Origin: Rhytidiadelphus loreus
Taxonomy: Eukaryota; Streptophyta; Bryopsida; Hypnales; Hylocomiaceae
NCBI GenBank assembly: GCA_947034895.1
Contig: OX344763.1
Coordinates: forward strand, 81,921,093 to 81,985,092
Direction of reading: 5' to 3'
DNA: 64,000 bases
Shown here: positions 11,479 to 33,017 of the stretch, one piece after another
Layout: each line of letters starts with the position of its first letter
How positions within the stretch are numbered: the first letter of the stretch is position 1
Notes under the pieces: model-generated
The model's input: only the letters and a program-made list of their open reading frames with translations
Database searches by the model: none
What the model was told of the DNA's origin: nothing
Program-made: the position numbers and the translations under genes

Positions 11479-12280
11479 ATAAAAAAACAGTATATGAAGC
11501 CAAATTTGATGCATTATACTATTACATTTCTGTAGGTAATACTTGATGCAGAAAATGATGCACACAATGTAATTTCAATCAATAGTGCTTGACTATTGAA
11601 AAACAAAAAAACCTTGATGATATTTTGAACATCATTAAGTTCATGTGCATTACAATGATAGGTTTAAGTAATAAATTGCCGTTACATGCTTCCATGTAGC
11701 AATTCATCATGAACACTTGAATAATGAATTATACATCCCTTTCATCCCTAAGGCTGGTAATCACTATCTCCTTTCACCTCTGCCCCACTACTATGACCTC
11801 TAGTATCCCATCCAGAATCTTCATCTTCATCGTTATTTGACTTTTCTATATCCTCTGATAAAGATTGTACAATTGCCCCTCCTTCTTGTACTTGCTTGGA
11901 TGCGACTGACCTCGTTGGTCGGCCCTTCCTTTGCTCCTGTTTGGCTCTAAGTATAGACTTTCCTATGCCTTCTTTAAGGCCATGAATCGGTTTTAATTTC
12001 CTCGCTAAAATTGGTTGACATACATCAAGAGGAACACTATATTCAATATTTTGAGAGGTTTGGAGTCTCTCAAAATAATATTGTCCATTTAGACTATATA
12101 CAATGAATTATAATGTTAGCCAGTTTAGGCGGGCAAACACTAAATTTGCTAGTTGTAATGTGCAATTTCCATTAAAATGAGAGTCCCATGAGTGATGGAA
12201 TGTTCAATTAGATGTATATGTTTTAAGATAAATGTTCTGATTAATATAAATAAAGATTTTGCAATCTTCTAAAGACCAAG

Positions 12281-12346
12281 TCATGAGCTCTACGATTGGT
12301 TGTAAGGGGTTGTTTATCTCATTGAAGCGGTCCGGATTCGATTCCC
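12281..12346 (+). other. tRNA-like pol III A and B boxes (possible SINE head)
   Basis: TGAGCTCTACGATTGG at about 12,284 resembles an A box, and GGATTCGATTCCC at 12,334 is a one-mismatch B box. The spacing of about 45-50 bp is normal for tRNA genes. I could not fold a proper cloverleaf with a paired acceptor stem, so a tRNA-derived SINE or dead tRNA is more likely than a working tRNA. No clear A-tail or target duplication found. Confidence 0.35.
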
Positions 12347-12706
12347 GTGGAATTCGTATGAGCGCATGAGAGAAAAAACATGACTTAGTGCTGCTAAGTG
12401 AGCTTTGCAGGCAGGAAAATTGTAACAACCAACCGGCTCCCTATCCAAACTTGTAACAAGTGCTTAACACGTTAACATAATAAAGAGTGGTTATACCCAC
12501 TATCCTTTTCTTCAATCGTATTACATTTTCAAATTGACTTTAGACAGATATTAAGCTAGTAAAATAACATGAAATATCTAGAAAAGAGTATGTGCAAACA
12601 TGAAATAGTAAATATATTTATATAAATTTGAAGATTAAAACATAATCAATATCCAATATATCAATTTAACAAACTATTACTAATTTCACGATAATATTCC
12701 ACAAAA

Positions 12707-15541
12707 TCAAGTATACAAAGCCAAACTTTGGTTGATGACTTCAATTTGAGCTGTAGGAATCTTGATCCTACATTTGCGGGTACCTCTTCTATTCTGGGAA
12801 TTCCATGCTGTCATCAAAGCGTTTGTTTCTTCCCATAGCAGTGGTTCGGTTTCATCAACCTTCCAACGTAAACCTCTTTCACTGTCCCATCATGTATAGA
12901 AGTCACGAACATCTTGATTCCTTGATGTTGGACAAAAGTATTGAATGAGCACGCAATTCGGCTTCTCAGGATTACAATTGGGATCAGACAACGCCCTTGC
13001 AATCCAAACCGATCGATTGTCACCATCTGCGGGTCGGATTGCAACAAAATAGCCTTCAAAGAGATCCCGACCCACCCTAAAGGATGCTTGTGGGCGTCCA
13101 CGCAAAGGCCCGACATAGGCCTCATCTTCTCCAAACTCTTCACGATCTTCACCATCATCTTGTAACTGATCCTCTAGAGTTGCTTGAATCCGAGTAGTTG
13201 GCCAAAAACCGTCCTTTAAATTAGTAGAAGCAGGTAATGGTTCTTGCAACGCCACCTTCACATCACGCCAGTAGTGTACCAAATGCTCATAGCGTCTTTG
13301 ATATTCTCCAGTAACGTCAACATTGCATAACTTCTCCCAATACTTCACAAAGCCAGATATACCTTTCAAAATGTCATCCACCCCTCTCATTTCCTTCAAC
13401 AAAATTGGCAACGGCTCTCCACGGGGCCACAAACTATGCCCCTCCGAATCTTCTTTCCACAACTTAATACCTCTACCATCCTCCCCTAACCAATCCACGT
13501 CAGTGCACAACAATTTGTATTTCATGACTGGACATCCCATTGAATCTAGGTAGAACTTCACTTGTGGTTTTGTGTGTCCAACCAGAGTCTCATCACCATC
13601 CACAAATGCACCTGCAATGACTCCTTTGAAATCGGGCACTTCTTCTATGAGGTGAGGGATAGTAGGAATGGACTCCACGTCCATAAACGACTTCATCAAC
13701 ATCGGGATTGTTGGAAAGTTCTCCTTTTTCAATAGCATGCCCCATCTTCCAAACAACGCGTCAATGTCATCGTGTGTATGACCCACAATCATGAAGTTTA
13801 CATACACTTCACGGAAGATCTTGTTTGCAACAAGTAGAGACCAAAAACAGAAAACATATTTGTTTTTGTTGTCTCCAGTAGCATTGTCCATTTGCACGTT
13901 GAGAATAGGTGGCAAAGGTGTCGTTGGAACCAAGTTATCTAGTGGTGGAGGTAGAGATGAGTTGCACATCTCTGCACCCTTCAGCACCGCTGTGAATAAA
14001 TTTGTTGAGCCCGACCCTACAAACAACTATCGAGAAGACAACTTTGGTGGCAATTCAAGATCCTGCAACAGCTTTGCCATAGAACCTATGGTGTAGTTTG
14101 AATCATGGGGAAAGAGGTCCAATCCATAATGAGCATAATGGACATCAGCATGACCTTGGGCAATCATGCCAGTGACAGACAAAGGCAACTTCATGAGGCC
14201 ATCAAGGTCTTTACTTTTGTGGGAGAAGACCGGGGAAACAGTTTTGGCATGATCCATCTTGTCGTGCATAATTGTAAGGCATTCATGCGGAAAATTATGT
14301 GACTGGTAGCGATTTGCGTAGTACAACTCCCTGTGAGCACGAGCAATAGCAAGATGCTTGTCCAACCTAATGGACCACTTCATAGCAGATTGAGATCCAA
14401 CAAGAGCACCCTTCCTGAGCTCTTTCAATTTGTCACAAGTAGCGCAACGAGCAAAATTGTCTCCTAGCTTCTTCACTTCATACTCAGAGAACCTTGAAGA
14501 TTGAATCTTGCTCAAGCTTGAAATTGAAACCTCCTTCAATCCAAAAGCAGCATTAGTTTCATTGATTGCTTTCATCTGACCCTTCCATTGGAAGGTAGCT
14601 AGCAATATCCTAGACACGACTTTGTCTCCAGACTTCAAAGTTCGTGTACGATGTGGCATGTGATCCGCTTCCTTATCAAGGATGCACTTCAAAGTAGCAG
14701 TAGCTTGTTGAGTGTGTTTCCTAGGCTTCACCAATCCCATATTGCCATGTACTGCTGCCTCCCGACCATCCTTCATGTATGTTTGGTAGCGATAGAACGT
14801 GGCTTCCGGGACCCCAAAAATATGCATCCATGCTTGCATGCACACGTGTATTTCTTCAATCATCACCATCCTTCTGCCACGTGAGTCTCGATGAACTTGT
14901 CTATGTACTTCAGTTTTCATAAAGGCTCTGTGCTTGAACGTTGAATTCCGATACATTCGTTCCCGGAAGGCTCGAATCTTGTCCCTTGAAAACAGTTGAA
15001 CACAATTTTGGCTGCAGCAGACTTTACTAGACACCAAGTTGATAGAGTCTTGAGTGAGTAGGTCATTTGATTTGATGGCAATCTTGCGAGGAGGATTTCT
15101 TATGGTACTTGTGTACGGTCTAGCAGATGTTGAAGATGGCGGGTTGAAGAGAGTTGCTTGCAACCGGTTGAAATTATCATGGGCCTCATGGTCATGCAAG
15201 CTTGCCCGACGACAATGGACAAGATTTATAGGCCAAACAACTAAAAAGTACACCTGCTCTTGTGAGATATCCAATTCCGAATGTGTCTTGGAAATGAAGA
15301 CTGCTACATGAGTGTCTCCAAGAGGACCGTTGCTTCCCAGCACAAGGTCAGAATCCACACTATGGCAAGTACCTTCTGCAACTAGGACGCCTGCATTGTT
15401 GTATAGAGTAACGCACTTTGTATTCCAGAGACGACGCGAAAGTCCTTCACACACTGGAATGTCAACATTCACTTCTTCGGGAATTTGGTATTCGCCATCA
15501 GAGAAGTCCATATTGTCGTCCGCTAACAAATCGGAATCCAT
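12707..15541 (-). pseudogene. DUF7869-type transposase-like protein gene, two stops
   Basis: A single 945-codon frame from ATG 15,541 to TGA 12,707, broken by TAG at 14,029-14,027 (codon 505) and TGA at 12,892-12,890. After each stop the frame stays coherent (LFVGSGSTN; WDSERGLRWKVDE). A Cys/basic region with a helix-turn-helix-like stretch (VCMQAWMHIFGVPEATFYRY) comes first. The RNase H-like core follows: IMHDKMDH (Asp about 427/430), QMDNATGDNKNK (Asp 552) and VGHTHDDIDALFGR (Asp about 591-594). The last two blocks are the hallmark of the DUF7869 family. The three acidic blocks suggest a DDE-type transposase; that is inference. The C-terminus (about 800-900) resembles a small BAH/chromo-like beta domain. 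An acceptor (TTTGTAG) just before the ATG suggests a 5' leader intron. Confidence 0.75.
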
Positions 15542-15687
15542 GATAACTACAAATCAAAGAAGATATTACTCAGTCAGGAAAGAGGCAAACATCGAGTTCA
15601 ACAAGATGCTTGAAAAAATAATCAAGTGAACATAGGTTTACAAAAGGAAATCTAGTAGATTAAATTGAAGAATTATTTCTTTGTCTG

Positions 15688-16776
15688 CAATTCAGGTCAA
15701 TAAGGGCTGAATTGTAAAGGTGTTGATTATGTTACTACAATGAAACTCTATGATGTTTATAGACATTCAGTAATTCCAACCGTAATGTAATCAGGGTTTT
15801 TGCTGGTCAATTAGTGCTAAACTAGAGGAAAAATATATTTACTGGAGATCAATTGCAACTGACATCTAAGTGAAATACATATGAGGAAAATGATTTGATT
15901 TTTTGGAAAATGTATAATCTGCAATATTTGTGTTCAATTCTTCATAAGTAGAATGTGCAGTTTAGGTTGTTACCACTTGAACTGCACATAAAGAGTTTTA
16001 CTTATTCTCACATGTTCAAGACAAATAGATAAAAGATTACAACTTACTTGGAATAAAATGCTAAATAATACTCTTGGCAATACGACCTGATTATCAAGAT
16101 TAAAACTACAGTCATCATGTTTTTTATATTTTTGACACCAAACCAAAACTCTACAATGTCAACATTCACTCGTGGACATTTGCAATTCAGGTGGTAGCTA
16201 CCTGAATTGCACAATTCATTATTCAACTTGTGAAAAAAATAACATGCTAAGACACCAATTTAACTAGGTTACATCAATGATGTAAGGAGATGAAAAATGT
16301 CTAATTATATCAAATGCCAATTCATCCAGATCTGCTCATTAATTTTTTTTTAAATTATTTTTTCACGTTCACAATTATATATCAAAAGGTTGTGCATTTC
16401 AGGTTGATACCACCTGATTTGCACCCCGTGACTAAGAGACACACGTTTCGTCAAGGCTAGGAAAGTAAAAGAGTGTATCTTATGAAGATTACGATGTTTC
16501 ACACAAGGTGTCACCATTTAGATTGATACGAGCTGATCTGCACAACCAATTAGACAAACATCCAGTACAAGCAGACTATGAAGGAAAAAAGTATACCCCA
16601 ATAGGTTTGAAATTCACAATGCAAGGCGTCTTAATTCAAGTTGATACGAGCTGATTTGCACAAGTCTCTAAACAATAATACAGTACTTTTCATTATAGAC
16701 ACATATCTAGGATTCTCGAGTGTCAAAATGATTTTATATCCTTTTTCAATTCAGGTCTTAGCAACCTGAACTGCAC
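15688..16776 (-). repeat. Hairpin family, group A (seven copies)
   Basis: Stem-loops at 15,688-15,714, 15,954-15,988, 16,181-16,211, 16,392-16,424, 16,513-16,543, 16,631-16,661 and 16,745-16,776. Arms follow GTGCAATTCAGGT / ACCTGAATTGCAC with substitutions, and every loop is 7 nt. The 16,181 copy is perfect over 12 bp. Read on the minus (gene) strand, loops include GGTATCA, CGTATCA twice and GGTAACA, close to GGCATCA in group B. All seven lie between the ATG of the minus-strand gene and a candidate leader exon at 17.4-17.6 kb. Confidence 0.85.
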
Positions 16777-17130
16777 AATCAACAATTAATTGTAGAATGA
16801 CCCCGTATTTTTCGGCGGAAAATGTGGATCTCTAAGGACAATCACTATCATCCGGATAACACAATATGCCAAACAAAATGAAATCACAACACTACAAGCC
16901 AATAACCCAGGACAAAAATTTGGCTTCCATTCCACTAGACCAAGGATTCACGGTCTTAATGACCAATTCAATTGATCATTTCTTGAAAGTTGTACTTCAG
17001 ATGGAGTCAAGTTCCTTACAAGTAGAATCAATTAAAAACGTTACTTGGTCACAAGCTCAATGACATTCAACACAAAACTTGATTGGCATCCTTGAAAATG
17101 CATGAATCGAGTCCATTGAAAGTCCGAGAG

Positions 17131-17238
17131 AGCACACTGGTATCCCGAGAATGCACACTAGTATCCCAAGAAAGCACACTGGTATCTCGAGAGAGCACAC
17201 TGGTATCTCGAGAGAGAACACTATTATCCCGAGAGAGC
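17131..17238 (-). repeat. 21-bp minisatellite, about five copies
   Basis: Unit GCACACTGGTATCTCGAGAGA with point changes, in tandem. It lies inside the probable leader intron of the 12.7-15.5 kb gene. Because 21 is a multiple of 3, the minus strand stays open with a repeated SLEIPVC peptide, which I regard as incidental. Confidence 0.8.
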
Positions 17239-17403
17239 AAATAGAAGCCTTATTGAGCGCAGTAAAAGTCCGACAGAGCGCAAGAAGTTCGACGTGAGCA
17301 CTAGCAGTCCAAGAGAGCACGCTGAAGTGCATCAACTCCTCACTAGATTCATAGATGCACAAACAAGATTTTACAACGTAAGTTCAATAGAGTTATCACT
17401 TAC

Positions 17404-17640
17404 AAGCAAGGACGCCTCAAAAATAATACCGTGATTGTCAAAAACAAGAACAACGTCGACTGAAACTGGAAAAAAAACCCAGAAACAGAGCGCGACCAAA
17501 GTATAAGATGAAATGGCGATGGCAGAAACACTGCTGGAGGAGGACGTCCCGAACCGTGAGGGCCTGAGAGACCACCTGGCGGGAGAGAAGACGCGCGAAA
17601 ACAATTGCAGGAAATTTTGAATTCAAGAATTTCCTTCACA
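17404..17640 (-). other. Candidate 5' leader exon of the DUF7869-type gene
   Basis: On the minus strand this is a GC-richer block ending at 17,404 in a canonical donor (GTAAGT). An acceptor lies immediately before the ATG at 15,541. If joined, the intron is about 1.85 kb and holds all seven group A hairpins and the minisatellite. No transcript evidence is available. Confidence 0.35.
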
Positions 17641-19485
17641 ACGGACGCGCATTTCCGCCGAAGATTATGCTTGCTACTACGGCATCATTCCAAAAATATC
17701 AAGAAGCCATATTTCCATAGACTAGAGTCTCATCCAAGAATTTGATGTGCCTTGCCAGTACCTTCCTCGCTGGATTCCATGCAGAACTCTGCTTCCGCCA
17801 GCCGGCCTGCGGTATTTCCGACTGTACTTTATTAACCGAACGGAATTTATCTAAATTTCATGAGTGGCATTGCTTAGACACCATCAATAATTTATTCTAA
17901 ACCTCCAAATGTGGAATTCAGGATTGTTTTTCTCACAGCCCCTAAATCATACATCTTTCGGGTTTCATAAAATTTTGTTTGAGAAATGTGAATCATATGA
18001 GGAAGAGGAGGTGCTCCACAGTCTGAAAATATTCAAAGTGCCTTATATCACAATGTGCAATATTTGTGAGATTACAGTCCTTCCCAGATAATAAAAGTAT
18101 TTTTTAATTCTAGGTTTGCACTGTCAGTGTAACAAGGGTCCAGAACTCCTCATTTCTTGGGGGATGCAAGTAAAAGACATCAGAAAGAACAAAGAAACAA
18201 TGTATCTTAACTGATAAAAGAAGAAACAAAAAGCTGGAAGGAGGGAAAAAAAGGTCATGATGTGACCTTAAAAGTTAGTAGAATGCTTCCAAGTGTCTCC
18301 AATTGGAATGTCGTTGAGGAGGAATGCTCATGTCATGAGCATCTTGCTAGCTGGATTGTGCCTTGAGCCAATGAAAACACCCCAAGTGCCGCACACTAAT
18401 GTGAAATATGGTACTTAGGGCTTAGTAACTGAAGTTAGTGTAGGGCTCATAATGTTAGTTACGAGTACTCTCTTCTAATGAGAATGTCAATTAATTTAAT
18501 TGTTAATCAATACCATGGCACCATAGCAATGTCCTATGATCTTGAACAAATATTTATTTTGCTTTCACCCTACCTCTAAAATGCTTGAGGCACCAAATTT
18601 TGGGGTCCACAATATTTTGAAATTTAATAAAACTTAACCAAGTTGCTATTTTTAGTAGTTTATATTTTCAAAAAATTATTTTTCAAGTCTAGTTTTAGCA
18701 TCAAAAATTTGATTTTGAAATGATTGCTTATTAGAAATACTTATTAGTAGCACATTAAAAATTTATTTTAAAAATTGTAGAAGATATTTTGACAAGCTAT
18801 AAATTGATTGTTGTTATGTGTGTTATTGTGTTAGGCCCTTTGACCTCATATTTTATAGTGACCCAATTTTTAGATTTGACATGTGAAAAGAAGATTGAAA
18901 GACTTCAAATTACTTTTGTAGACCTAACGCCCTCATGATCAAAGATTATATTCTTTCAACTCATATGTGACGTTGTAATATTGTTGTGGTTTCTTCTCCT
19001 ATGTTATCTTTAATATTTCTAGTTTGATTTTGCATTAATACAATTCTAAAAAAATGATACAAATTATCAAATGTTGGCTTTTTGTTAGTTTAGAACAAAT
19101 TCTCAGAAGCTCAAAGAAGGCCTTGGACATTTAGGGGTTAAGAGAAAAAGTTTAGCAACTCAAATAAGAATGTACAAGTTAGTATAAAATCAATTAAAAA
19201 AAAGCACAACAATTGTTTTTTAATAGCATAACAACCGACAACACATAATGAACACAATTTATTAAGTACCCAAAATAATAGTCCTTCCGTCCCTAAATGA
19301 TCTTGGAGTTGGTCAAATAGTGTGGGATTAAAGTTGAAATAACATTATCTCTATCCATTTCTAAATATTTAAGATGAGCAATTGCAAGATCATTTTGGGA
19401 AAAAGGAAATATTTTTTTAGTCCCAAAATATCTTGTGATAATAAAAAAAATATGTATACATATAGGACACCCAACCATAATATAG
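17641..19485. other. Spacer without a recognisable gene
   Basis: AT-rich, no convincing ORF, no recognisable transposon ends. Nothing further seen. Confidence 0.5.
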
Positions 19486-19835
19486 AACCTTCAAGTGCCC
19501 AGAATTGCAAGTGAAGACTTCTTATAAGTCATGTAGGCCTCAAAATAATATATCCTACTCCAAAAACATCTTGAGGGACTAGGAAAAGAAATAAGAAAAC
19601 CTTCAAGTGTCTAGAATTGCAAATAAAGGCTTCTTGTAATTTGTTGAGGCTTTGAAATAATATATCCTAGTTCTAAGAGACTAAGACATCTTACTGGGCT
19701 AAGAAAAAAAATATAATATATAAAACCTCCAAGTGTCTAAAATTGCAAGTGAAGGCTTCCTTTAATTTGTTGAGGATTTAAAATAATACATGCTAGTTCC
19801 ACAACTTCTTCTGGGACTAGGAAATAAAACTATAG
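19486..19835. repeat. Degenerate tandem repeat, three units of about 112-125 bp
   Basis: Units begin AACCTTCAAGTG or AACCTCCAAGTG at 19,486, 19,598 and 19,723, and share AATTGCAAGTGAAGGCTTC and AAATAATATATCCTA blocks. Clearly old, with many substitutions and indels. Confidence 0.75.
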
Positions 19836-19956
19836 TATATAAAAATTAAATTAAATGAAGACAAGATTTCCATAAAAAAAATAGAAGAAAAAGAAATAGA
19901 AGAGAATGAATGAATATACAAGCTTGCATGTATCAACGACAATATATAATGTAAAT

Positions 19957-20301
19957 AATCTCATGAAATTCACGTCCAAAAAAATGGGAAACATGTTGTG
20001 CAAGTTGCAATTATTCATAAAGTCACGAATTCAAAAAAATTTGCAATAGGTGGTCACTTGAAATGACCTTGAATGTCTGTGAATGTTAAAAATTGGGGCA
20101 TGCACCTAGCCCTGTACTTTAAAGTCCAAAAAAATGTAATCTCATGAAATTCACGTCCAAAAAAATGGGAAACATGTTGTGCAAGTTGCAATTATTCATA
20201 AAGTCACGAATTCAAAAAAATTTGCAATAGGTGGTCACTTGAAATGACCTTGAATGTCTGTGAAAGTTAAAAATTGGGGCATGCACCTAGCCCTGTACTT
20301 T
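19957..20301. repeat. Recent 181-bp tandem duplication
   Basis: The block starting AATCTCATGAAATTCACG at 19,957 recurs at 20,138 with only a single difference noted (GAATGTT versus GAAAGTT) until both end near CCTGTACTTTA. The near-identity shows it is young. Confidence 0.92.
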
Positions 20302-21605
20302 AGCTATATGTAGATGTAAGACTCTAATTTATTTTTAAACACCTCTATTGAAATAAGGCTATTTTACTTTTTTAAATGCATACCATTTGACAAATTGAAG
20401 ATTGTAATGTTTTGTTTTTCTACATAGTGTAAGAGGATTAGTGTTGTTGTTCTAGGTACTAATTCTTGAAAAAACTGAAAGCTATATCAATGTTTTGGAA
20501 ACAATCTTAGGAAATAAGCTTTTAGAAATTTTAGGTTAGGATTCTTTATGAATTCATTTTTGACAATCAAGAAAGATAAACAATTCCACGTGATTGAGTT
20601 ACTTTTGTATTATCAATATTTTAGTTGGATTTGGATTTAGGAAAATCTATCTAGAACTTTAAGAAAGTGAGATTTGTAGTAAAGGTTCATTTTACTTCTC
20701 ATAAAATTAAAAGAAGTAAAATAAAGTTTCCTTTCACTTTTTAAGAACATAGGAAAACTATAATGAATTTCTCTTTTCCTTTTCAAAAAAATAAAAGAAC
20801 TACAATGTAAAACGTTGCTTTCACTTTTAGATTTAAGTCTTTAAATTGAATTGAAAGCACCATAGAAAATATAACCTATGAAATGCATTAAAAAATATAG
20901 TTGATGGTCATTATTGTTTCATTTTAGTAATTAAAGTTCAATGAAAGACATTATTGTATATAACAACATAAAACAATTGACTTCAACAAAGGTAATTATC
21001 AATTACAATAGGGCTTGGATTAAGGTAGTATGCTCTAAAAGCAAGTTAGCATGTAAGGGTTGGTCCACCTTTTTAATAGGTTATCATGTATAGAAATCTT
21101 TTTCAATCTTTTTCAAAAGAAGGAAAGTAGATGTGGAACCTAACACAAGTGGTTATGTATTTATCAAAGCATCTTTGAATTACTTATAAATTTTCAAAGA
21201 TTTGGGGCATAGGCTTCTATTTGTGACCTCCCAAAATCCATCTCCTTGCAACTTGTAAAGAGATGTGTGGAAATCGAAGACAATGATAGGTTCTTGCAAT
21301 AGAAAAATAATTTTTCCTTGATTTATTCATTTGCTATAGTGGTCCGTTTAAGAATCATTCATTGTTTCTTCTTCAACTAATAGTAGGGTCCATTTGAAGA
21401 AGATGGATGCATTTAGAGTGTACTACCAGACTAGTTGGAAGGACCTTGAAGAAATGGAATTACTAATCATCTTCTACTTTTGCAATATTGTTTGAATACA
21501 AATTTAATACATTGTAGTAAGGGTGTCGCACTTATAACATACAGGTAATTCCAGTAAGATTTTACTTCTCTGGAGGTGCAGCCAGATAATTTACCGGGTT
21601 TATAG
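20302..21605. other. AT-rich spacer
   Basis: No gene or repeat structure recognised. Confidence 0.5.
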
Positions 21606-22327
21606 GGGTGATTGCAAGAAACACTTGTCCTATTTTGCGTCACATGGTGTGTGCTGATTTGTTTTTTGGCCATAACTTTTGTGTTTTGGCTCCAAATGAC
21701 TCGAGATTTATAGGGAAGGTACTCATGACTATCATACACCTTCACTAATTTTTTCATAATTTCTGAAAATAGTTTACTATCCAAAAATAGACCCCGATTG
21801 AATGTCACATTTGATAGTTTAGGGGTTTTTAGTACTATTGAGTACCTTTTTTTAATGATTTTGAGCTGAAATTTGGATGAGATGGTCTTCTAATAGACTT
21901 CTAGGTCTCCAGGGAAGGAATTTCAAAAAAAATTAATTTTATGTGGTGTGGAAGTCTACAAAGTGAGCTTCCTTCTGCTTGCATTTTGAAACATATAAAA
22001 TATCATTTTGGTGGGTTTTTTGGTGAATGACCATCTCTGTAGAGTTGTTGCAAATGGTCAATTTTCATTTTGTGTATTTACTTATTTTTACTATTTTTCC
22101 CTAATTAAAACATCAAGGTATGTATTTTCTTGAGACTTAGCACTTTTCAAGTTCTCCTACTTAGAGAATTTTTCTATGCAATTCCTTCCGTGGGTACCTT
22201 CGTCTTAAAGGTGTATACATTAGTCATATTTTTTAAATTTAAAAAAAAATATTTTTCTAATTTTAAAGTACTCCCGAAAAAATCAGCCAAACGCAACAAA
22301 ATCGACAGGTGTTTCTTGCAATCACCC
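21606..22327. mobile_element. Small inverted-repeat DNA transposon (copy 2, 722 bp)
   Basis: Starts GGGTGATTGCAAGAAACAC and ends with its exact inverse GTGTTTCTTGCAATCACCC, flanked by ATAG on both sides as a 4-bp target duplication. It shares ordered interior blocks with copy 1 at 7,437-8,185 but is well diverged, so the two insertions are old. No coding capacity for a transposase. Confidence 0.85.
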
Positions 22328-24970
22328 ATAGGCGGAAACAATAGGAGTACTGTGGTGGGAAGTGTCACATGTATCCAGTAAATTCCTTTATGAGAACAGG
22401 CAATTGCAAATTCCTTGTTTTTTACTTGGTGATACCAGCCCCAGCTACTTTCGAGGCGCATCTGCAGTCCGCACCCGAGCTTCTCTGCCAGTTTGCTACG
22501 CGGGGAGTTGGAGCGAAGCCTTCTGCGCTTCTCATTGGCGACAAAAAGGGGGATCACAAGAACTATAGTGGTGGGGGCTTTTAGGGTTTGTATTTTTTTC
22601 CGCTTCGAAGTGAGGGTCGTGGAGCTACAAAGTGAGTGTCTTTTACCTACGAAGTTAGGTCGCGGAGGTGCGAAGTCAGGTCGCTGCAAGTGTGGGTTGC
22701 GGAACTTGGAATTTAGGATCGCCGAGGTGCGAAGTCTGCAAGTTGAAAGGTACGTCCCGAGCAAATCTTTGAGAAACGTTTTGTGTTTCTGGTTCGTCGT
22801 GAATTCAGTTTTCTTGAAGCTTCTCATGTGCTTGAGATTTTGTTTTTCTTGATTTCCTATATGGACTTCTGTGGTGATCGGTCTTGCTCGGTGTCGATGT
22901 TGCTCGATGTTCCCTTTCAGATTTGATTTTTGTTGTGTTTTTTCGAGCAACGCACACGAGGTTGTACCCCTTTCCAAACCTCTGGAAGATTCTTTTCGAT
23001 CATGAGCTTCCTCGCGTAGGCGGAATCCTGAGAGATGTAGGAAAAGATGTAGGTTTCTAGAGAACAATTCTCGATCTAGGGTTTATGGTATTGATGTTTT
23101 AGTCGTACTCACGTTAGGGTTTAGTGTGCTCATGGTTTCCCCTGTCCGTCTCCTGTGAGTTGTGTCCCGAGCCCCGAACGTCACCTTTCTCCGTCTCTTG
23201 TGAGAGTCAGAGTCCCTGAAAACTGAATTCCAAGAAAAACTAAACTAAGGTGGAAGCATCCTCAGGTTCACGACAACTTTTTTTACTGTCTTGTTTTTTT
23301 TTGCGTGAGGCTTGCGGAATTTGTGGTGAGCTTCATTTTGAATGTTGGTAATGTTGAGTGTGGCATAAATGCATGCACGTGATGGGAGTTTGCTCTGTCC
23401 CCTTCTCCTTCTAAGGGCCCATCCCAGCGTTGGTTGTGTTCTGTATTTTATTTTGTTTGTGAGTTTCTGTAACTTCAGCTTTACTGAGCTGGTGCAGGTA
23501 CCATATTCTAAGCGAACTTTTGGGAATCAAAAAGTGCTCGCAAAGCAGTACCGAGAAGCCGTAGCTAAGAGCAAGGATTTTTCAACTTGCTGACAATAGA
23601 GCGTGCTACTCATGGTGTATTGGTAAGCACAGCACAAACTGCAAGTTGGGTCTCACTCATCAATTTTCACCAAAGGATAACATAAAATCTTGAATCAAAT
23701 ACTGTAACTTACATGCTTTGAAGCAATTGACAGTGTAACTAAACTGCTTGGTTCTGTCTGTACGTTGGATGTCATTGATTCATGATCCCTATTCGTTTCA
23801 GGTGCTCGGCACTAGCTCCTGAGAATTTGAGATTTGATCGGAAGCTCCGGTTGGCATGGAGGTTGCATTTTGTGGAATCTAGTGGAATTTGTGGTGAGTT
23901 TTGAGCGCTGTATTTAGGATTCGTGCTTGGAAGTGTTGCATTCAAGTAAGCAATGGGAGTTTCTTTTGTCACCTTGAACAGGCCTATGTCCTTGCAACTT
24001 TCTTGCTTCCAAAAGGGTGCTTTGATTCAAAGCACCTGTTCTGTTCTCTATTTCAATTTGTTTGTTAGCTTTCTTAGCGTTTGGTCTGCTTCCATTGCTG
24101 CATCGCAATTATTCTTTTTGGTGTCCATTTGATAGTATTTCTGGTACCCCACAAAATAATCTCTTTATCTGAACTTCAATTGCCTCTGTGCACCTAATTG
24201 TTGTAGTTAGCCCACCTTGTTAGAATGCACAGTCCATCAAGAAAATAGCCAAAATAGCTAGTAAGTGTGAGTGTTCCTCCTTTGAACCCTTGTGGAGGTT
24301 TCTATGGTCTTTCATGATACCGTGTGCTCAGTTGGGTTGCCCCTGCGCTTTTCAGCGTTGCTACATATAGAGCAAATCTTTCTTTTCTAGTTTGTAACTG
24401 AAGCCTTTGTCATGTACTAGTTGAATGTCTAATGTCACCCACGCGCATACATCTTTTGAGTTGTGTACAAGATTGAAATTTTTGGTTAGAAGAGCAATGG
24501 TATCTTGTGGTTTCCATTTTGTGCGTGGATTTCTTGACGTTGCTAATCCAATCATGGATAACTCGTTGTTTACTCGTTGTTTGTTTTCCCTAGGTCTCAG
24601 AAAGGGTCCAGATATTTTCGTAACCAGGTGGCCGGAACTGTGAATGTGAAGCTTGAATTTGGAGACTTTTGAAGCTTGAATTGTGAGTGTGAAGCTGAAT
24701 ATGAAGTTTGTATTTTTAGTCGGAAGCTTAAGCCGGAGTCTGAAACAGAATGTGAAGCTTGAATTTTGAGTTATTTGCTCGGGCTTCCTAGATTGTGAAC
24801 GACGTGATCAATACGCAGTTCTTGTTTTCCGTCCCTATCCGTCCCTTATTGTTCTCCGTCCCTGCATAATTAATAAGTTATCTGGATATTGTTGATTGTC
24901 CATTTTCTGTAAAGATTAATAAGTTATCTGGGTATTTTGTAAATTTGTAAAACTTTGCGTTGCTGTCTCA
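22328..24970 (+). other. Probable promoter and leader region of the 26-kb gene
   Basis: GC-richer than its surroundings, with TTTAGGGTTTGTATTTTT near 22,580 followed by degenerate GTGCGAAGT repeats and several good donors (for example AAAG followed by GTACGT near 22,750). Later, TGAAGCTTGAATT repeats lie around 24,650-24,770. No protein gene is supported. The 297-codon minus ORF at 22,174-23,067 looks like a by-product of composition. An acceptor just before the 25,992 ATG implies that at least one leader exon lies in this stretch. Confidence 0.35.
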
Positions 24971-25858
24971 CGCGATTTAGGTGGGATAGACCTGAAATGC
25001 ACAAGATGTACTCTAGCATTTTAATTAAAGAAATAAAGTCGATAACAAAAGCAGCACAACAGAAAGATTTTTAGCCTTGTGTAATTCAGGTGGCATCAAT
25101 CTGAATTGCACAAGCACAGTCCATTGCTATTCTAAAAATAAATCAAACTATAAATCAGATATTTTTGCTAAAAAACCTAGAACATAGTAAAAAAAATAGT
25201 AAAATCATAGAGCTAGTGTGCAATTCAGGTAGCATAGACCTAAAATGTACACAAAGAATGTCAGTTGTGAATACATCATGCTCATCTGTCACAGACAAGA
25301 AGACACATTCAACCGCAATCACAAAAAAAGACGCTAACAACCCACATCTAATTGATCAATTAATTTTGAGTGTACTTTAGAAAAAACTAACAATCCTGAG
25401 GTGTCTATGAAGCAGATAAAGTTGTATTCTAGCATATATAATCAAAAAATAACAAAAAAACCAAAAGCGGCACGACAAAGAGCATTCAAGCCTTAGGTAA
25501 TTCAGGTGGCATCAACCTAAACTGCACAAGCATAGAACAGTGCCAATCAATAAATATATTTACAATATTAACCTGTCTAGCTATTGCCTAAAAATCAAAA
25601 TAAAGCCGTGGGAAAAAAAGTTCATATTAAGGTGCACGTCGCTAGTATGCAATTAAGGTAGTAAAGACCTAATATGCAAATAAATAAAATTTAAGACTTA
25701 TCCTTCAAAGACAAGACAACACATGCAAAAGAAAATACATCCAAAGATTCTAACAAACCACGATTAATTGATAATTTATTCATAAATAGACAAAATAAAA
25801 AACAAATAAAAAACAAGTCCGAAATGAGCAATTCAGGTCGCACCCACCTAAATTGCGC
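24971..25858 (+). repeat. Hairpin family, group B (six copies)
   Basis: Stem-loops at 24,971-25,002, 25,078-25,112, 25,216-25,252, 25,497-25,527, 25,647-25,679 and 25,826-25,858. Arms and the fixed 7-nt loop are as in group A. Loops are GGGATAG, GGCATCA, AGCATAG, GGCATCA, AGTAAAG and CGCACCC. They precede the acceptor at 25,990, so they lie in the presumed leader intron of the plus-strand gene. Confidence 0.85.
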
Positions 25859-27428
25859 ACGTGAATATCCTCGAGAAAAAATAGGTTGTCATTCCAAGTT
25901 CCCTTCAACAAAGCTCAAAAAACCCATCAAAACAAAACCATGTTCATAGAAGGTTAGAAAAATAAAATGTAATTTCTATTTATTTTGCAGCATGGAGGAC
26001 CAAGTCGAAAATCTAAATGCGTACTTCAAAAAGAGCACAACAAAGACTCCTGAAGTCGACGACGAGGATGAGATGATGGACGATGGAGATTACTGGGAGT
26101 TCAAGGATCCTAAGGAAGTGGAATCCTGGGGTTTGGCAATGATTCCTTTCACGGACCACTTTCATTTTACTATGAAGTACACAAATGCTCAAATCTATAT
26201 TCCAATCTCGTTTCACGAGAGAGTGAAGGACGTCATCTACGACATTTATCCACAAATTCTCATACGATGTGTCACTACAAAGACGGGGGTCCAGAGCAAT
26301 GAACCATATCACTTCACCATTCTTGTAAACTCTGACAAGATCACCTTAAACATGATGTCCCTTCTCAAGAGTTTGGAGCCCACCCCATACAGCAATGAAA
26401 TTAAGCAACTGCAGAAGAAGGTGGACGATGGGTATTATTGCAATCAGGATGGATCACCGCTGACCGGGAAGAGACTGTGTGAAAAAATACGACTATTGTT
26501 AAACTCCTTCGAGGTCCTCAAGGAAAAGCATGCCATGCAAAAGTCTTTCATGGCTTCTCGCACAATTTCAGTGGAAACAGCAAGCCAAGTGGGAAGTCAA
26601 CTCTCCATGGGAAACCAAGGGGCTAGATCACAGGGGCGAGGTATAAGGAACAAAAAACCTCCACTAACACATGGAACACGAGGGAGTCCCCTAGCGTCAA
26701 CGTCTGCCAAAAAGCAAATTGATCGAACATCAGAACAATCTGGACAAGGAGAGTTGAGCTACGCGGACATGATGCTTAATGTTCCACAAGCATTAAATAC
26801 CGAGCGAAAACCAGATTACAAGGTCGTAAGTGCGGTGTACCGAAAGTATTGGGAAACATACTTAAGCGCGTACGTTCTTCCTGCTGACGAGAAGAAAGAA
26901 CTTCCACTGAAGCAACTCATTCAAGCACCACCAGAGTTCAACATACGGGTCCTCGAAGACAAAATGGTTAGGGATATGATGAACTGGCTTGTCAACATTC
27001 CTGACAAGAGTGCTAAGCAAACCCTCTGCATTATGCCCGTTAATCAAGTGCAAAAGCCGGAGAGGTGGGAAGACATTGCAGATGGTGAATTCTACATCAT
27101 CAACGATCAGCACAGCGTTGCGGCGAGCAGGCTGATGTTGGATGAAGAAAGTGGAATTGACAGAGAGACTAGCAAGCAATTCGAGAAGTGGAATTGCTTC
27201 ATTGTTTGGTCTGATAATGCTGAGCAATTGCGGTCGATTTCAGCTTACTATAACCGCACCAATCACTTCCAGGCGATTCAACCATCATGGGCAACAAACA
27301 TTCTCGGAGCTCGAACAGTGTGGGTGAAGATGGGGAGTCTAAAAAATCCCAAAGAGGCAGCTGCAGTAGGGATTGTGACAATTACAAAAAGAACTAGAGA
27401 ATCAATGCGAGAGACAACAAAATTCATG

Positions 27429-27524
27429 GTGTGTAATTCAGGTCCCTTAGAGCTGAATTGCTCAATTGTTTTTTGCATTGTCATTAAGTGTGCAAATCAG
27501 GTCCCGTAGAGTTGAATTGTTCAC
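27429..27524 (+). repeat. Two hairpins of the family inside intron 1
   Basis: Copies at 27,429-27,465 (loop CCCTTAG) and 27,488-27,524 (loop CCCGTAG) in a 190-bp intron. The left arm of the first starts exactly at the splice donor, so GTGTGTAATTCAGGT is both the 5' splice site and the hairpin arm. Confidence 0.85.
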
Positions 27525-28985
27525 TTGCTTTCTGCTTTGTAATTGTTTTGTATAAATTGACTACATTAGAATTCTTTAAAACTTGATTATTGATTCTCAA
27601 GTGCTCAACTTCATGCAGGCTTTTGAAAAAGCAATGCACCAACGTTTTGCAATGATCGATGTCAATAAAAATCACATGACCGCTAAGAGAAAAGGTGCAG
27701 ACGAGAAGCTAAAACTCGTCAACGAACTCAAGATTATAACCGCACCGGACGAAGTTTACAATTTGTGGAGCGAAGTCATTACGAATGCAGCACATGGGGA
27801 GCTCTTTGATCCTGATACCTTGATGAAGTTCAACAAGAAAGAGAACTGGAAACAAGAGAGCTGCTCCCTCAGCCGTGACTTCTTCAAGCCTCTCGGAAAT
27901 CTCAGCTACAATGACCTCGAGAAGCTGGCAAAACACATCCTCAACCAATCTGGATCCAAGTACACTAAAGATTATCCAAAAGTGACTATCAAGACCACAA
28001 CTTCGGTGCTTGACAGTTGCTACAATACAAAGGAGTGGGTTGAAAGGCGCAAACGGAAGAAACTAGTGAAAAAAGCACTCCAAGAAATTGACCCTGACCT
28101 CGGATTATTCAGCGCAAATGGTGAATTCATTGCCGCAAACTGGAGGGAATTCAAACGAGGTCACAGCATTACAAGTGCGACAATGAATCTCCTCGTAGAG
28201 AGGCCCGGGGATAAAATCTTTGGAACTGGAAAGCAACTCAAGGCCAAAAACATGTCCGCGGAGCAGATATCACCACGAGCAGCAGAGTTCTTCAAGGTTT
28301 TCCTGCAGAGGAAAAAAAACTTTAAAACGCAAACTGGGATTGCATACTTGAGACCCTATAGCATTGGCAACAACACGTGGTGGAAGTGGCCCCCAAAGGC
28401 GTGGAACGCGGAGACCCAAAACCAGATAATGCTAGGCGTCATTGACTTCAGAAGTATTCCAGGGGCCTTAAAGAAAGAGAAGTCCAGTATCGAGAATCCT
28501 TTCTTCAACGTAGTCCTCACCTCCATGCAGAATGAGAAGAGTCCTCTACTTGAAGATATCAAGTCTTGGCTATTTATTTGTGCCGACGAAGTAGATCAGA
28601 CACAAGTGTTGGCATACGTGGAGAAAAATGCGGTCCTCAAATCCTTCAGCTTGAATTTTGCCGACTACTACCCGGCCAAAAATGAACGCTTGATGGACCT
28701 GCCCGCAAACAGCGCCAAGGCATTGAAAAAAGTTCTTTTGATATTTCTTCAAAGTCCAGTCAACAATATGAAGGCCAAAATACAAGCAGAGTTCGTAGCT
28801 CCCAATACGTCCGTATATAGAGATGCAAGAAAGTATAATGAGCTTCCATTTCGTATGTATAATATGGAGCTTAGGATGGAATTCTATTTCTGGGTAGTGC
28901 AAACGTTTTGCCATCCCGGATCAAGTGTGCTCTCGGTGTTTGCCGGAGCAAAATTGACATGTGCAGCCCTGGTAAGTAACATTTC

Positions 28986-29101
28986 GCATTTTAGGGCGCT
29001 CCCACCTAAATTGCACACCATTGCTCATAAATCTCTGCTTCAGTTTTCCTTCTTTTATTTCCGTTGTACTTCATTTCAAGTTGCACCCACCTAAATTGCA
29101 C
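28986..29101 (+). repeat. Two hairpins of the family inside intron 2
   Basis: Copies at 28,986-29,014 (loop CGCTCCC) and 29,071-29,101 (loop TGCACCC) in the 216-bp intron that splits the methylase-like motif. Right arms are near identical (ACCTAAATTGCAC). Confidence 0.8.
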
Positions 29102-30202
29102 GCTATTTGAAAGATTTCTAGATAAATTCAAATCATGTATTTGAATGCTTAAATCACTAAACGCCTCTTCATGTCAACGCCATGCAGATGAGGGGTATGA
29201 ATGTGTATGCATTAGTTCCCGATATTGAATCAAATATATGGAGCGACGCTATTACTAAAGCAATTATGTTAAACAAAGACGATTTCTTGGATACAGGGTA
29301 TCACGTCGATGAGGCACAATATCCCACGGTTCCGGCGTCGCAAACAACGTCAAAAACGATAAACAGAAAATCAGCTACAGGTTCCCCAAGTAGCTGCGCA
29401 AGCAAAAAACAAGTGGTAGTCGATGAAGATGATGAGGAAGAAGATGAGGACGAGAAAGAAGTTGACAGTCTCGAAGCAATGCCTACGCCAGGTGCACGTT
29501 CATCGCAAGACATGCCGGGCTCATCAACTTCATCAAGTTTGCCTCCACCAACTGTTGAGGCTGCATTTTCACCCTCTCCTGTGACTCAAAACCCCTGGCA
29601 AAAAAAAGAAGGGTAGACACAATGGATACCCTTGTGCAGACCTTGGCGTTTGTAATGCAGCAACAAGAAAACATTCGACTTGAGAATTTGAACGAACGGG
29701 CGGAAAACAGGAGGCTCCACGAGGAGTCGAACAAGAGGATCGAAGGCCTTACAAAGAGTTTTATGAACGAGACAAAGCAAAACAGGGAAATGTGGCAAAA
29801 TTATATTACCGTCAAGCAAGCCACACCATTAGCAACGTTGGATCCTGCCTCAACTTCCCAAGTTCTTCTTCTCCAAAATCACCCCTCCGTGTCAAGTGAC
29901 GGCGCAATTTCCATTCCGTAGGGCGTTGAAGCAATAGTGCCTCCTCTTCCTCTTGGAGGACTAGTGCTTGATCCTCCTCCACCAGAAGAAGTTGTTCAAA
30001 TTCCTAAGGCACCATTCCAACATGTAGATGCCACGGTAGAAGAGAGTGTACATGTTGACGTCAAAACACCAACAAAGACGGCAAAGGTGGATGACATAGG
30101 GCACAACCTGTAGGTGGAAACACTTGAAGTAGTACAAGAGAGTGAAGGCGTTTCCACCGACGTTCAACAAGCAGGTTGTGCCTTGTAATCACTCGATGTC
30201 AT

Positions 30203-30232
30203 TTGTTTCAGCTTGACTCGAGCTGATTTGAT
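30203..30232 (+). repeat. Hairpin of the family just after the ParB/methylase stop
   Basis: TTTCAGCT, loop TGACTCG, AGCTGATTT. It is weaker than the others but keeps the 7-nt loop and starts 15 bases after the final stop codon. Confidence 0.55.
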
Positions 30233-30311
30233 GTACATAGAGCATAGATAGTAGAATTGTGTTTTGTAAGATGAACTTCTAGGACATTGAACTACTTTGT
30301 TTCGAGCTTGA

Positions 30312-30382
30312 AAACTCATTTTTGTATGACCAAACTCATTTTTGTATGACCAAACTCATTTTTGTATGACCAAACTCATTTT
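30312..30382 (+). repeat. 20-bp tandem repeat, 3.5 copies
   Basis: Unit AAACTCATTTTTGTATGACC repeated without change in the 3' flank of the preceding gene. Confidence 0.95.
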
Positions 30383-30442
30383 CTTGAGGCAGTTATATAT
30401 TGATTTCTTACAAAATATGATTTCATATTTACTGAATCTCAG

Positions 30443-31604
30443 GGCTTGTGAGTTTGACAAATTTATCCGATCCTACCTCACCTTCACATCCGTCATCCCT
30501 TCCACACATGACAGTCGATGATATTCCTCGGAACTTTGAAAACGCATCATGCGAAGAAAAGAAGAAGGTCAATCCTTCTAGATTGACGACAACATTGCAT
30601 GATAATTCCCTAGCTACCGGTGAATCCTCCCAGAAGCAGGTATGGTTCGATTCATATTCTATCTATCCTAGATTCTGTAGGTAGACTTTGTTGTTTGTAC
30701 ACATATAATTCTCAAGGATTTTGTTCTCTGTTATGTCGTCATGAACCTTCAATGAAGCCGTAGACGATTGTAACCGCTTCCACATTCGTCCGTTTGATAG
30801 CAGGGATTTGGCCCTCCATCTCATCATGAAGGATCTTCGGAGGTTGTCAATTGACCATTCAGGTCCAGGGTTGCGGAGAAGTGGGTCAATGTTATCCTGG
30901 ACCTAAATGGCATTCTATGTGTCTTCAAAGATTGGAAGTCGAAGGGGTTGTCTCACAAAAAACTCAGGAACTCCTCAGAACTGCACTCTGCAACCGAATC
31001 CGCTCTAGTGGGACCCAAAGCTATGTGGGTGCGACCCGATTGCTCCAAATTTCTTTCAGAGATAGGAAAAATTGCAGTCATCTCAGTGTGGAGCTCCATG
31101 AAGAAGTCCACTACTGAATTGATATGCAAGTATCTCTTTCGAGACGTACATGAACCCTTTCTTATTCTTGGGCAGGATGCATGTGACACAATTAAACATA
31201 GAGATAAATCAAGAAGGCTGACCACTTTCAAGGAGGCAGGGATTGATAAAGACTTGTTTCTTAAGAATCTTGATACATTGTTCAAGGGTTCCAGAGGAAG
31301 CTTTGCAAGTGACAATACTATTGTAATCGACAATAGCCCAATAAAACACATAACGAACAAGCCTAATAATGTAGTACTACCAGAGTCATGGAGCTATAGG
31401 GGAAACGGCCCAAAAGACACATTTCTGTTTGATGTATTGCTTCCCTGGTTTCAACGTCTACACGCTTTTGGCAATCAAGGGTTGAAATCATTTAGGGAAA
31501 ATGATCTTGGAAGAATTGGGCGGCGGATGCTTTGCGTCGAGAGGAATCGGAAGGAGTACAACAGAATTATGGATGCAATTCGTGCATCCTCTTGTGCTAG
31601 TTAG
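30443..31604 (+). pseudogene. FCP1/NIF-type (HAD) phosphatase-like gene, one stop
   Basis: Two exons: one from an acceptor at 30,442 to 30,640, the other 30,804-31,604, in the same phase. The second reads VNVILDLNGILC (HAD motif I, in the DxNG form typical of a plant FCP1-like group), then WVRPDCSKFL, VISVWSSM (motif II), LGQDAC, and TIVIDNSPIKH (motif IV). These match the NLI-interacting-factor/FCP1 phosphatase fold. The usual IDDSP is IDNSP here, so a metal-binding Asp is lost. TGA at 30,852 interrupts the frame shortly before motif I (fits CGA decay). No initiating exon was identified; the first ATG in the open part is near 30,508. It follows the ParB/methylase gene on the same strand by about 250 bp. 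A hairpin of the family lies 40 bases beyond its stop. Confidence 0.7.
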
Positions 31605-31643
31605 GCTAGGGCTTTGACGTGTGTAGTTGACATCGGACCAATT

Positions 31644-31673
31644 TGCCGTTTTAGCTCGGCACAACCTGATATG
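31644..31673 (+). repeat. Hairpin of the family after the FCP1-like stop
   Basis: GTTTTAGCT, loop CGGCACA, ACCTGATAT. A degenerate arm, but the 7-nt loop and sense position are kept. Confidence 0.5.
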
Positions 31674-31822
31674 TACATTGTTGATTATATAAGTATGAAT
31701 GAAAGTTCTGTTCTCGGTGTACAACTTCAACTGTGCAGCTGGATTCAATTTGGTTCTAGTACATTGTGTTTTATTCATGTTTGCACTTCATGACCTTTCA
31801 TTTGAATATGAAATTTTTTTCA

Positions 31823-32441
31823 GATTATGAGCACCACATCAACCCATGCTGTAGAAGGTGGCCTTGCTTGCGCAGCGTCCGTGGATTCTATTATGGACTA
31901 TGGACAATACGTAATATTGAGCACCGGAAACTTTCTTTGCTCAGCGGCTACAACAAATTCCACAATGGACTTTTCAACACAGCCTACGGATGATAACGTG
32001 GTGGACAGTCCCCCAAGTGGAAGGCCACGTCCGCCACTATCTTGCTCCCTGTCTCCTCTGAGGTCTACAAGTCATCCTACTTCTTCGTTGTCCTCCGATA
32101 GAGTGCCTCCAAGGAAACTTTATGGGGATATTGATTGTTCATTCCATCCAGCAACATTGAAGTCCGAGGTACCAATGCGTACATGCCCGACACTCCCTCC
32201 TATTGCACCATTGCTTCCACATCAACGAGCATTGTCTGAAGGGTATCAAATGAAGCGTTCACATGGCGAAGTCTCTTGTAGTTGTTGCTCTATTCCAACA
32301 TGGGATGCGTGGGAGCGGAAGTCATTGAAATTGCAACGGCGTCAATTCAGTCGTGAATACCAGAAGATGAACAATGGATATAGTAGAGGACTGGAAATTT
32401 TGAAGGCACTGGAGAAGCTAAAGAGTAAATCTCACACATGA
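31823..32441 (+). CDS. Uncharacterised exon-like ORF, 204 aa
   Basis: Follows an acceptor (TTTTTCAG) and starts with Met at 31,827. Ser/Pro/Thr-rich first two-thirds, then a short Cys cluster (CSCCS) and a basic amphipathic C-terminus (WERKSLKLQRRQFSREYQ). No family recognised. It may be the last exon of the unit that begins at 30.4 kb, or a separate gene. Ends at TGA 32,441. Confidence 0.4.
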
Positions 32442-33017
32442 GACTTGTTCATATAATTCACTGGATTTACGTAGACCAATAATAATGGTATAGAGATATT
32501 TTGTAGTTCAAACACATAGGCTTCCATTTCACTAGCACTTGACTGGAAATGTTGGTTGCCAATTTATTGCGTACTTGTAAATTGGAACACATTAATGGTA
32601 CATTTTCTTATACAAAGTCGCATTTCGTTGTGATTGTACATTTATAGATTACATATATGTACATCCATTGGCTCCTTTTAGTAAATGGATATTTAAAATT
32701 TAATAAATGCATGATATTTGGTCATCTTGTTATTATATACACGCTTCATATGACTTTGCATTGCTTATTTTGTATTTACAGCGACAAATTTCTCTTCAAT
32801 TTTTGGATTGTAGTGTCTTTTAAAGCACTCATTTCAGTGGAAAACTCCCATTTTAATGAATATGATGTTGAGGGGTGTTACCAAGACTTGGTCTCTTTGA
32901 TGGGGAAATTGCAAAAGCCTCCATTAATCTTTTCTTTCGAGCTTTGTGGGACTCTTTCACCATTGGTGATCTTGCTTGCGATCCTCCTTGATTGGGTATC
33001 TTTGCTCCATTCATTTG
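32442..33017. other. Spacer without a recognisable gene
   Basis: AT-rich. The minus strand at its right end may continue the broken reading of the next entry, but with stops. Confidence 0.4.

Follow-up and report, generated by a model that had tools for sequence, protein, structure and literature searches.

Conserved, Sub-Family-Specific 33-bp Palindromes in a Giant Sola-1-like Transposon of the Moss Rhytidiadelphus loreus as Candidate DNA Recognition Sites

Introduction

It was in a 64,000-nucleotide stretch of the moss Rhytidiadelphus loreus (contig OX344763.1, positions 81,921,093 to 81,985,092, hereafter "the window") that a preliminary description noticed 19 stem-loops in the non-coding parts of two divergent genes, one encoding a DUF7869 protein and the other a ParB/methylase protein. 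We found that both divergent genes, their introns, and all of these dyads belong to one DNA transposon of 20,837 bp, so that the two genes were rightly seen while the single element holding them together with every dyad had gone unnoticed. What is new here is the dyad family itself, which is sub-family specific and conserved. In the reading that we somewhat favour, the dyads serve a giant Sola-1-like transposon as recognition sites in double-stranded DNA, and an element-encoded protein, most likely the fusion of a ParB fold with a methyltransferase fold (ParB/MTase), would bind each palindrome as a dimer. Sites across promoters, introns, and 3′ regions would let the element mark its own non-coding DNA, and this marking would keep the element genes from being silenced, or would control them, in a way akin to that of VANC in the VANDAL transposons.

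Results

The Transposon and Its Dyads

The limits of the element were taken from two further copies in the genome (407 Mb in 489 contigs), here called C4 and C2, whose alignment with the window starts at exactly 12033 in both and stops at 32870 and 32869, respectively. Because these homology limits coincide with terminal inverted repeats (TIRs) and with 4-bp direct duplications, namely GAGG in the window, GTAT in C4, and ATAT in C2 (the three copies with ends read), the dyads and both genes are placed in one transposon, with the following boundaries:

12033 to 32869: whole DNA transposon, 20,837 bp, from the homology limits of the C4 and C2 copies and from its ends
12029 to 12032: left target site duplication GAGG, from the ends read
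32870 to 32873: right target site duplication GAGG, from the ends read
12033 to 12057, plus strand: left TIR, AACACTATATTCA..., with an identical start in sub-families E and F and a nearly identical one in D
32845 to 32869, minus strand: right TIR, AACATCATATTCATT..., imperfect, from the ends read

Directly inside the left TIR there is a palindrome of another kind, TTTTGAGAGG ... CTCTCAAAA at 12046–12078, common to the window, C4, and C2 copies and partly to D, E, and F; since it is kept across copies and sub-families while the dyads differ, it may be the transposase's own site. In the genome as a whole, ParB exon 1 has at least 91 matches, the non-self ones ranging from 96% down to 48% identity, and this is a lower bound given that 89 of 1,057 candidates were scored.

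Scanning the window for the arm match at all spacings of 0–15 nt, with a score out of 26 positions, gave 16 places with at least 19/26 at the 7-nt spacing and at most two at any other spacing. An arm-degenerate scan found 18 dyads, all of them between 15685 and 31676 and thus inside 12033–32869, and none in the rest of the 64-kb window. The nineteenth, at 16511–16543, is degenerate (17/26 matches, with 6 of its 13 arm positions pairing when G-U is counted); it is under the threshold of the later scans and enters no statistic. The 19 stem-loops with a fixed 7-nt spacing were thus confirmed, the copy at 16511 being weak, and their partition was also as first described: seven at 15685–16776, six at 24970–25858, two in each intron, and two past stop codons. 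The proposed loop consensus GGYATCA held for some copies of the window element only, given that other sub-families read CGANTCG or similar. Because the central 7 nt are largely palindromic in those sub-families, the dyad is better named a 33-bp odd-centred palindrome, with a common 13-7-13 geometry, than a stem and a loop. The dyads are as follows, each found in both the spacing scan and the later scan unless stated otherwise, and none having an assigned strand:

15685 to 15717: dyad 1, upstream of the transposase
15955 to 15987: dyad 2
16180 to 16212: dyad 3
16392 to 16424: dyad 4
16511 to 16543: dyad 5, degenerate (spacing scan only)
16629 to 16661: dyad 6
16744 to 16776: dyad 7
24970 to 25002: dyad 8, in the presumed ParB/MTase leader
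25079 to 25111: dyad 9
25218 to 25250: dyad 10
25495 to 25527: dyad 11
25647 to 25679: dyad 12
25826 to 25858: dyad 13
27431 to 27463: dyad 14, in intron 1, beginning 2 nt into the intron
27490 to 27522: dyad 15, in intron 1
28984 to 29016: dyad 16, in intron 2
29069 to 29101: dyad 17, in intron 2
30201 to 30233: dyad 18, past a stop codon (later scans)
31644 to 31676: dyad 19, past the phosphatase stop codon (spacing scan and degenerate scan)

Sub-Families Carry Different Dyad Variants

We examined ten loci of 5 kb with a ParB exon 1 that is 48–55% identical to that of the window. They also contain 33-bp odd-centred palindromes of identical geometry; these occur in the leader and in intron 1, seven loci have them in intron 2 as well, and in nine a dyad starts 63–88 bp before the ATG. 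Their arms differ, with variants such as ATCAGCT-CGACTCG-AGCTGAT, AATTCAGCT, and TTTAGCG-CGAGTCG-CGCTAAA, and the AATTCAGGT arms recur in the 55% sub-family. In two loci, L032 and L034, one match each is flagged as lying in exon 1, because in both the match to the query is broken into two pieces by a frame shift and the fixed exon window extends into intron 1. One locus of the 55% sub-family, L050, has five dyads at a spacing of 122 bp (positions 539–1059), a tandem repeat reminiscent of the evolution of VANC targets.

In the 9.5 kb upstream of four of these diverged ParB genes we found a transposase gene and a second dyad cluster of the matching variant. Half-site profiles trained on one cluster and used to classify the other in six elements assigned 21 of 29 and 33 of 47 dyads correctly, whereas permuted labels gave means of 5.0 and 7.9 and maxima of 13 and 18 in 10,000 permutations; more than half of the misassignments (12 of 22) confuse D with E, which are sister sub-families. 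An element's own variant is therefore carried by both of its clusters, on the transposase side and on the ParB side, which lie kilobases apart. There are 7–18 dyads per element in the six, four of them read in part; for this test and the co-divergence test described below, the part of D, E, F, and H covered runs from 11 kb upstream of the ParB ATG to 3.5 kb downstream of it. Both tests, and the dN/dS comparison, omit the C4 copy as a near-duplicate of the window copy. They use elements with a transposase side at hand, and so leave aside L049 and L050 (55% sub-family), L045, L047, and two second copies, L041 and L043.

Placement, Constraint, and Genome-Wide Occurrence

None of the 76 dyads of the six elements lies in the annotated coding blocks, which make up 35% of the sequence (P 5e-15 if the dyads are independent and evenly placed), bearing out the earlier remark that no dyad was accepted in an exon. 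In five of the six elements this annotation consists of the transposase and ParB/MTase exons 1–2 only, and therefore a dyad in another exon of those five would escape notice.

The dyads are conserved islands within fast-changing leaders. Differences between copies amount to 0.084 in the arms vs. 0.156 in the surrounding leader (17 copies) and to 0.110 vs. 0.288 (10 copies), which means that the arms change at 54% and 38% of the leader rate, values equalled by 0.05% and 0.15% of circular shifts, respectively; L030, L032, and L034 were excluded from this comparison. When the flanks of dyads within an element were compared, 20 of 478 pairs exceeded the 99% null level, with about five expected, which indicates a common duplicated context for a few sites and unrelated flanks for nearly all.

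Throughout the genome, the arm pattern with up to three mismatches was found 1,447 times, compared with 414 for a reversed control pattern. Among the matches listed (C1, C2, and part of C3), 36 of 53 distinct perfect dyads have a ParB match no more than 15 kb away, vs. a mean of 0.6 and a maximum of 5 by even random placement, a control that ignores the clustering of elements. This proximity test used 90 of the 91 ParB matches, omitting C1:42452548 as the second piece of one gene, and the other 17 perfect dyads listed may come from unlisted, decayed, or non-autonomous copies.

Probable DNA Sites Rather than RNA Hairpins or Foldback Repeats

We read the dyads, on sequence grounds, as DNA sites rather than RNA hairpins or miniature inverted-repeat transposable elements (MITEs), because the symmetry extends into the supposed loop and wobble pairs are not favoured. 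In 94 dyads from ten sources, with no symmetry rule applied to the centre, the pair of positions beside the centre, which a hairpin cannot form, is complementary in a fraction of 0.47 vs. 0.35 after shuffling, a value reached by 8 of 1000 shuffles, and the next two pairs outward are complementary in 0.82 and 0.72, a less clear excess over shuffling (reached by 172 and 33 of 1000). This central effect is modest, and inflated by relatedness. As for wobble, mismatches on the presumed transcribed strand are G-U in 69 cases vs. A-C in 98 (112 dyads, 16 loci), or 131 vs. 162 in the 196 unique dyads of all 40 loci. Finally, at nine sites compared in 13 close copies, 59 changes affect one arm and only 2 affect both. 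A pair is broken by 29 of the one-arm changes and created by 19, and the other 11 leave pairing as it was. The nine sites include one, at position 1129 of L005, whose status as a dyad is doubtful.

These observations bear directly on the suggestion, already made in the preliminary description, that the dyads are RNA hairpins acting in introns and untranslated regions as splicing, small-RNA, or decay signals. The dyads do lie in presumably transcribed non-coding regions, one of them begins 2 nt into intron 1, and their arms co-vary between sub-families; against this, there is no excess of G-U over A-C in either count, double changes are far outnumbered by single ones in the close copies, and complementarity reaches the pair beside the centre, all of which makes hairpins very unlikely.

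A foldback MITE scattered at random, an outcome named beforehand as one that would overturn the family, is rejected, given that the sites occupy corresponding positions in diverged elements and that their flanks are unrelated in nearly all pairs; target duplications around single dyads were inspected by eye only, in the flanks within the window. Palindromes can seed small RNAs, and in principle the dyads might be silencing targets, as foldback repeats or MITE debris breeding small RNAs with no benefit to the element. We consider this extremely improbable in view of the matching placement of the sites in elements with about 50% identity in the ParB exon, the unrelated flanks of nearly all pairs, and dyads better conserved than their surroundings.

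The Two Proteins and the Question of the Binder

The two divergent genes that accompany the DNA sites have the following coding blocks:

12893 to 14026, minus strand: transposase candidate, second coding block, DUF7869 (Pfam PF25273, 111 bits vs. a cut-off of 26)
14030 to 15541, minus strand: transposase candidate, first coding block, with a sub-threshold start of DUF7869 (24.9 bits)
25992 to 27428, plus strand: ParB/MTase exon 1, with a predicted ParB/sulfiredoxin fold at residues about 300–428
27619 to 28971, plus strand: ParB/MTase exon 2, with a predicted beta-class amino-methyltransferase fold at residues 237–451
29188 to 29616, plus strand: ParB/MTase exon 3, spliced product of 1,072 aa by a gene model built from the sequence alone

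DUF7869 is the sole significant Pfam domain of the transposase candidate, and in the open-licence PMC literature searched it is not named. Between elements, dN/dS is 0.09–0.14 for the second transposase block and 0.06–0.14 for the first, where dS is defined. Separately, transposase modules look exchanged between sub-families (12033–15637 compared with L038–L040).

While the DUF7869 label given earlier was upheld by Pfam, the ParB/methylase label stands by predicted fold and not by Pfam: no ParB/methylase match was found in Pfam (alignments of exons 1 and 2), PHROGs (exon-1 alignment), or NCBIfam (eight proteins), and in profile searches of PDB sequences exon 1 had no match up to E 1 and exon 2 had one, at E 0.99. 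With regard to the helix-turn-helix DNA-binding domain of ParB-CTPase proteins, exon 2 has a helical stretch of mixed model confidence up to residue 235, and the listed fold matches span 238–451 only. The ParB-CTPase fold carries an arginine-rich nucleotide motif, GERRxRA, which is absent here, with NDQHS in the window and NGQHS in 19 of 23 aligned rows, the others being near NGQHS. A search for viral relatives of the ParB exon gave 105 pattern matches in viral contigs, none confirmed, and the ParB and DUF7869 proteins match Physcomitrium patens among few named database entries. The VANC domains DUF1985 and DUF287 had no Pfam match in the scanned window proteins or in the 23 and 30 aligned relatives.

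As to which protein would bind, we somewhat favour the ParB/MTase protein of the element. The idea that the dyads are sites for a protein of these genes agrees with their element-specific co-variation, their conservation, and their absence from annotated exons, from which we infer the binding itself. In bacteria the ParB fold family binds palindromic parS sites, and the predicted ParB/sulfiredoxin fold of exon 1 supports the same role here. Between the window and C2 copies, the transposase has a recent dS of 0.25, whereas ParB/MTase has an old one of 2.0 in exon 1 and 1.2 in exon 2; the left alignable part of this pair ends before the dyads, and 10 of 12 transposase-side dyads classify with their own ParB side.

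Two results weigh against the ParB/MTase protein as binder and marker. Motif IV of beta-class DNA amino-methyltransferases reads D/N-P-P-Y/F, but this methylase lacks the DPPY motif, with D-F/L-R in 28 of 30 rows, D-F-Q in one, and a gap in one. Moreover, in 15 pairwise comparisons, the distance between dyads goes with that between transposases (correlations of 0.86 and 0.82, with exact Mantel P of 0.004 and 0.007, respectively) and likewise with ParB/MTase distance (0.71 and 0.63; P 0.004 and 0.003). An active methylase is, for lack of DPPY, unsupported, and co-divergence as a means of naming the binder was non-discriminating, with a slight lean to the transposase.

The dyads might be internal sites of the DUF7869 transposase, serving synapsis or self-regulation in the manner of the CACTA/Spm subterminal repeats, a reading favoured by a dyad divergence that follows the transposase at least as well as ParB and by the seven dyads just upstream of the transposase gene. 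We nevertheless hold it to be unlikely, given that the first 3.6 kb and the last 1.2 kb of the window element, where transposase sites are expected, contain no scanned dyad, that dyads occur in the introns of the other gene, that the copies share the different left-end palindrome at 12046–12078, and that in the window and C2 copies the dyads do not go with the transposase module that was exchanged. A host transcription or chromatin factor exploited by the element would account for conserved sites placed in promoters, introns, and 3′ regions; it is also quite unlikely, since such a factor is not expected to need a separate arm sequence for each sub-family in one genome.

Other Features of the Element and Window

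Besides its two main genes, the transposon carries within it a gene for a phosphatase, whose region has homologous DNA in one sub-family E copy, and a further open reading frame (ORF):

30948 to 31604, plus strand: NIF/FCP1-like phosphatase gene of the element (PF03031, E 5.8e-11, 42.8 bits vs. a cut-off of 21.8)
31827 to 32441, plus strand: ORF near the right end, function unassigned, from the ORF list and within the stretch aligned with C4 and C2

A short tandem repeat of about 20 bp, CCAAACTCATTTTTGTATGA, lies at 30325–30385 between two element genes. Elsewhere, a sub-family D element is apparently inserted in the DUF7869 gene of another element (L052:1–1124), and outside the transposon the ORF at 37425–37874 resembles the dimerisation region of hAT transposases at a sub-threshold level (E 0.0027).

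Discussion

Proposed Self-Recognition Mechanism

Taking the ParB/MTase protein as the binder, we tentatively propose a parS-like self-recognition, which may well prove otherwise, in which the ParB-fold protein would load at about a dozen element-specific palindromes, cover the non-coding DNA, and protect it from silencing, with protein and sites changing together and so founding, in a single moss genome, transposon lineages that do not cross-react. Anti-silencing as the outcome of dyad binding is suggested here by analogy, and the system may work with or without adenine methylation. In the open-licence PMC literature we found no report of what the ParB+methyltransferase proteins of giant transposons bind. 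With the dyads, definite candidates for such sites are at hand, and because a single genome holds at least three arm types that are clearly distinct, binding assays could test the self-binding idea with swap controls already built in. Should it hold, VANC-like self-recognition by sequence would have a second case, here on a bacterial-type fold.

Comparison with Known Systems

Sola elements have a 4-bp target site duplication, and such a duplication was found in the window, C4, and C2 copies, while the ParB/MTase layout is a trait of the giant Sola-1 element of Ectocarpus, Sola1-1_Ec32, and not of all Sola-1. Sola1-1_Ec32 is 21.5 kb long and encodes a 1,104-aa ParB+MTase protein opposite the transposase, and the authors of its description suggest that such proteins may bind and modify their own transposon (PMC12477816). 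The moss element likewise has its ParB/MTase gene opposite the transposase, with 20.8 kb and 1,072 aa; unlike Sola1-1_Ec32, for which the available part of that report describes no sites, it has a plant host, a site family, and a lost DPPY motif. By layout, size, and 4-bp duplication, we regard the element as probably Sola-1-like.

CACTA/Spm elements have subterminal repeats that bind the transposase and are, like the dyads, multiple, short, and element-specific; unlike them, the dyads lie in the interior and in introns, and no scanned dyad falls in the end kilobases of the window element. With the bacterial ParB-parS system the moss element shares a ParB-fold protein and palindromic candidate sites, although its palindrome is longer, its nucleotide motif is non-canonical, and it is a eukaryotic transposon. 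A ParB-CTPase fold fused to N6/N4 methyltransferase domains is described for phages (PMC12704722).

A close functional parallel would be VANC of the Arabidopsis VANDAL transposons, which binds element-specific non-coding motifs and induces methylation loss (PMC5735166). Its motifs are 8–9 bp long and often in same-orientation tandem arrays, whereas here they are 33-bp palindromes and mostly non-tandem; the protein here is of the ParB fold, and the methylation loss demonstrated for VANC has as its counterpart only a presumed anti-silencing. In both systems, tandem repeats carry sites (here at one locus, L050), and the VANDAL motifs are found mainly in introns, intergenic regions, and terminal non-coding regions, with a transposase more conserved than the motifs (PMC5735166). 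As in VANC/VANDAL, the moss element has element-specific motifs, mainly non-coding, which differ between related sub-families.

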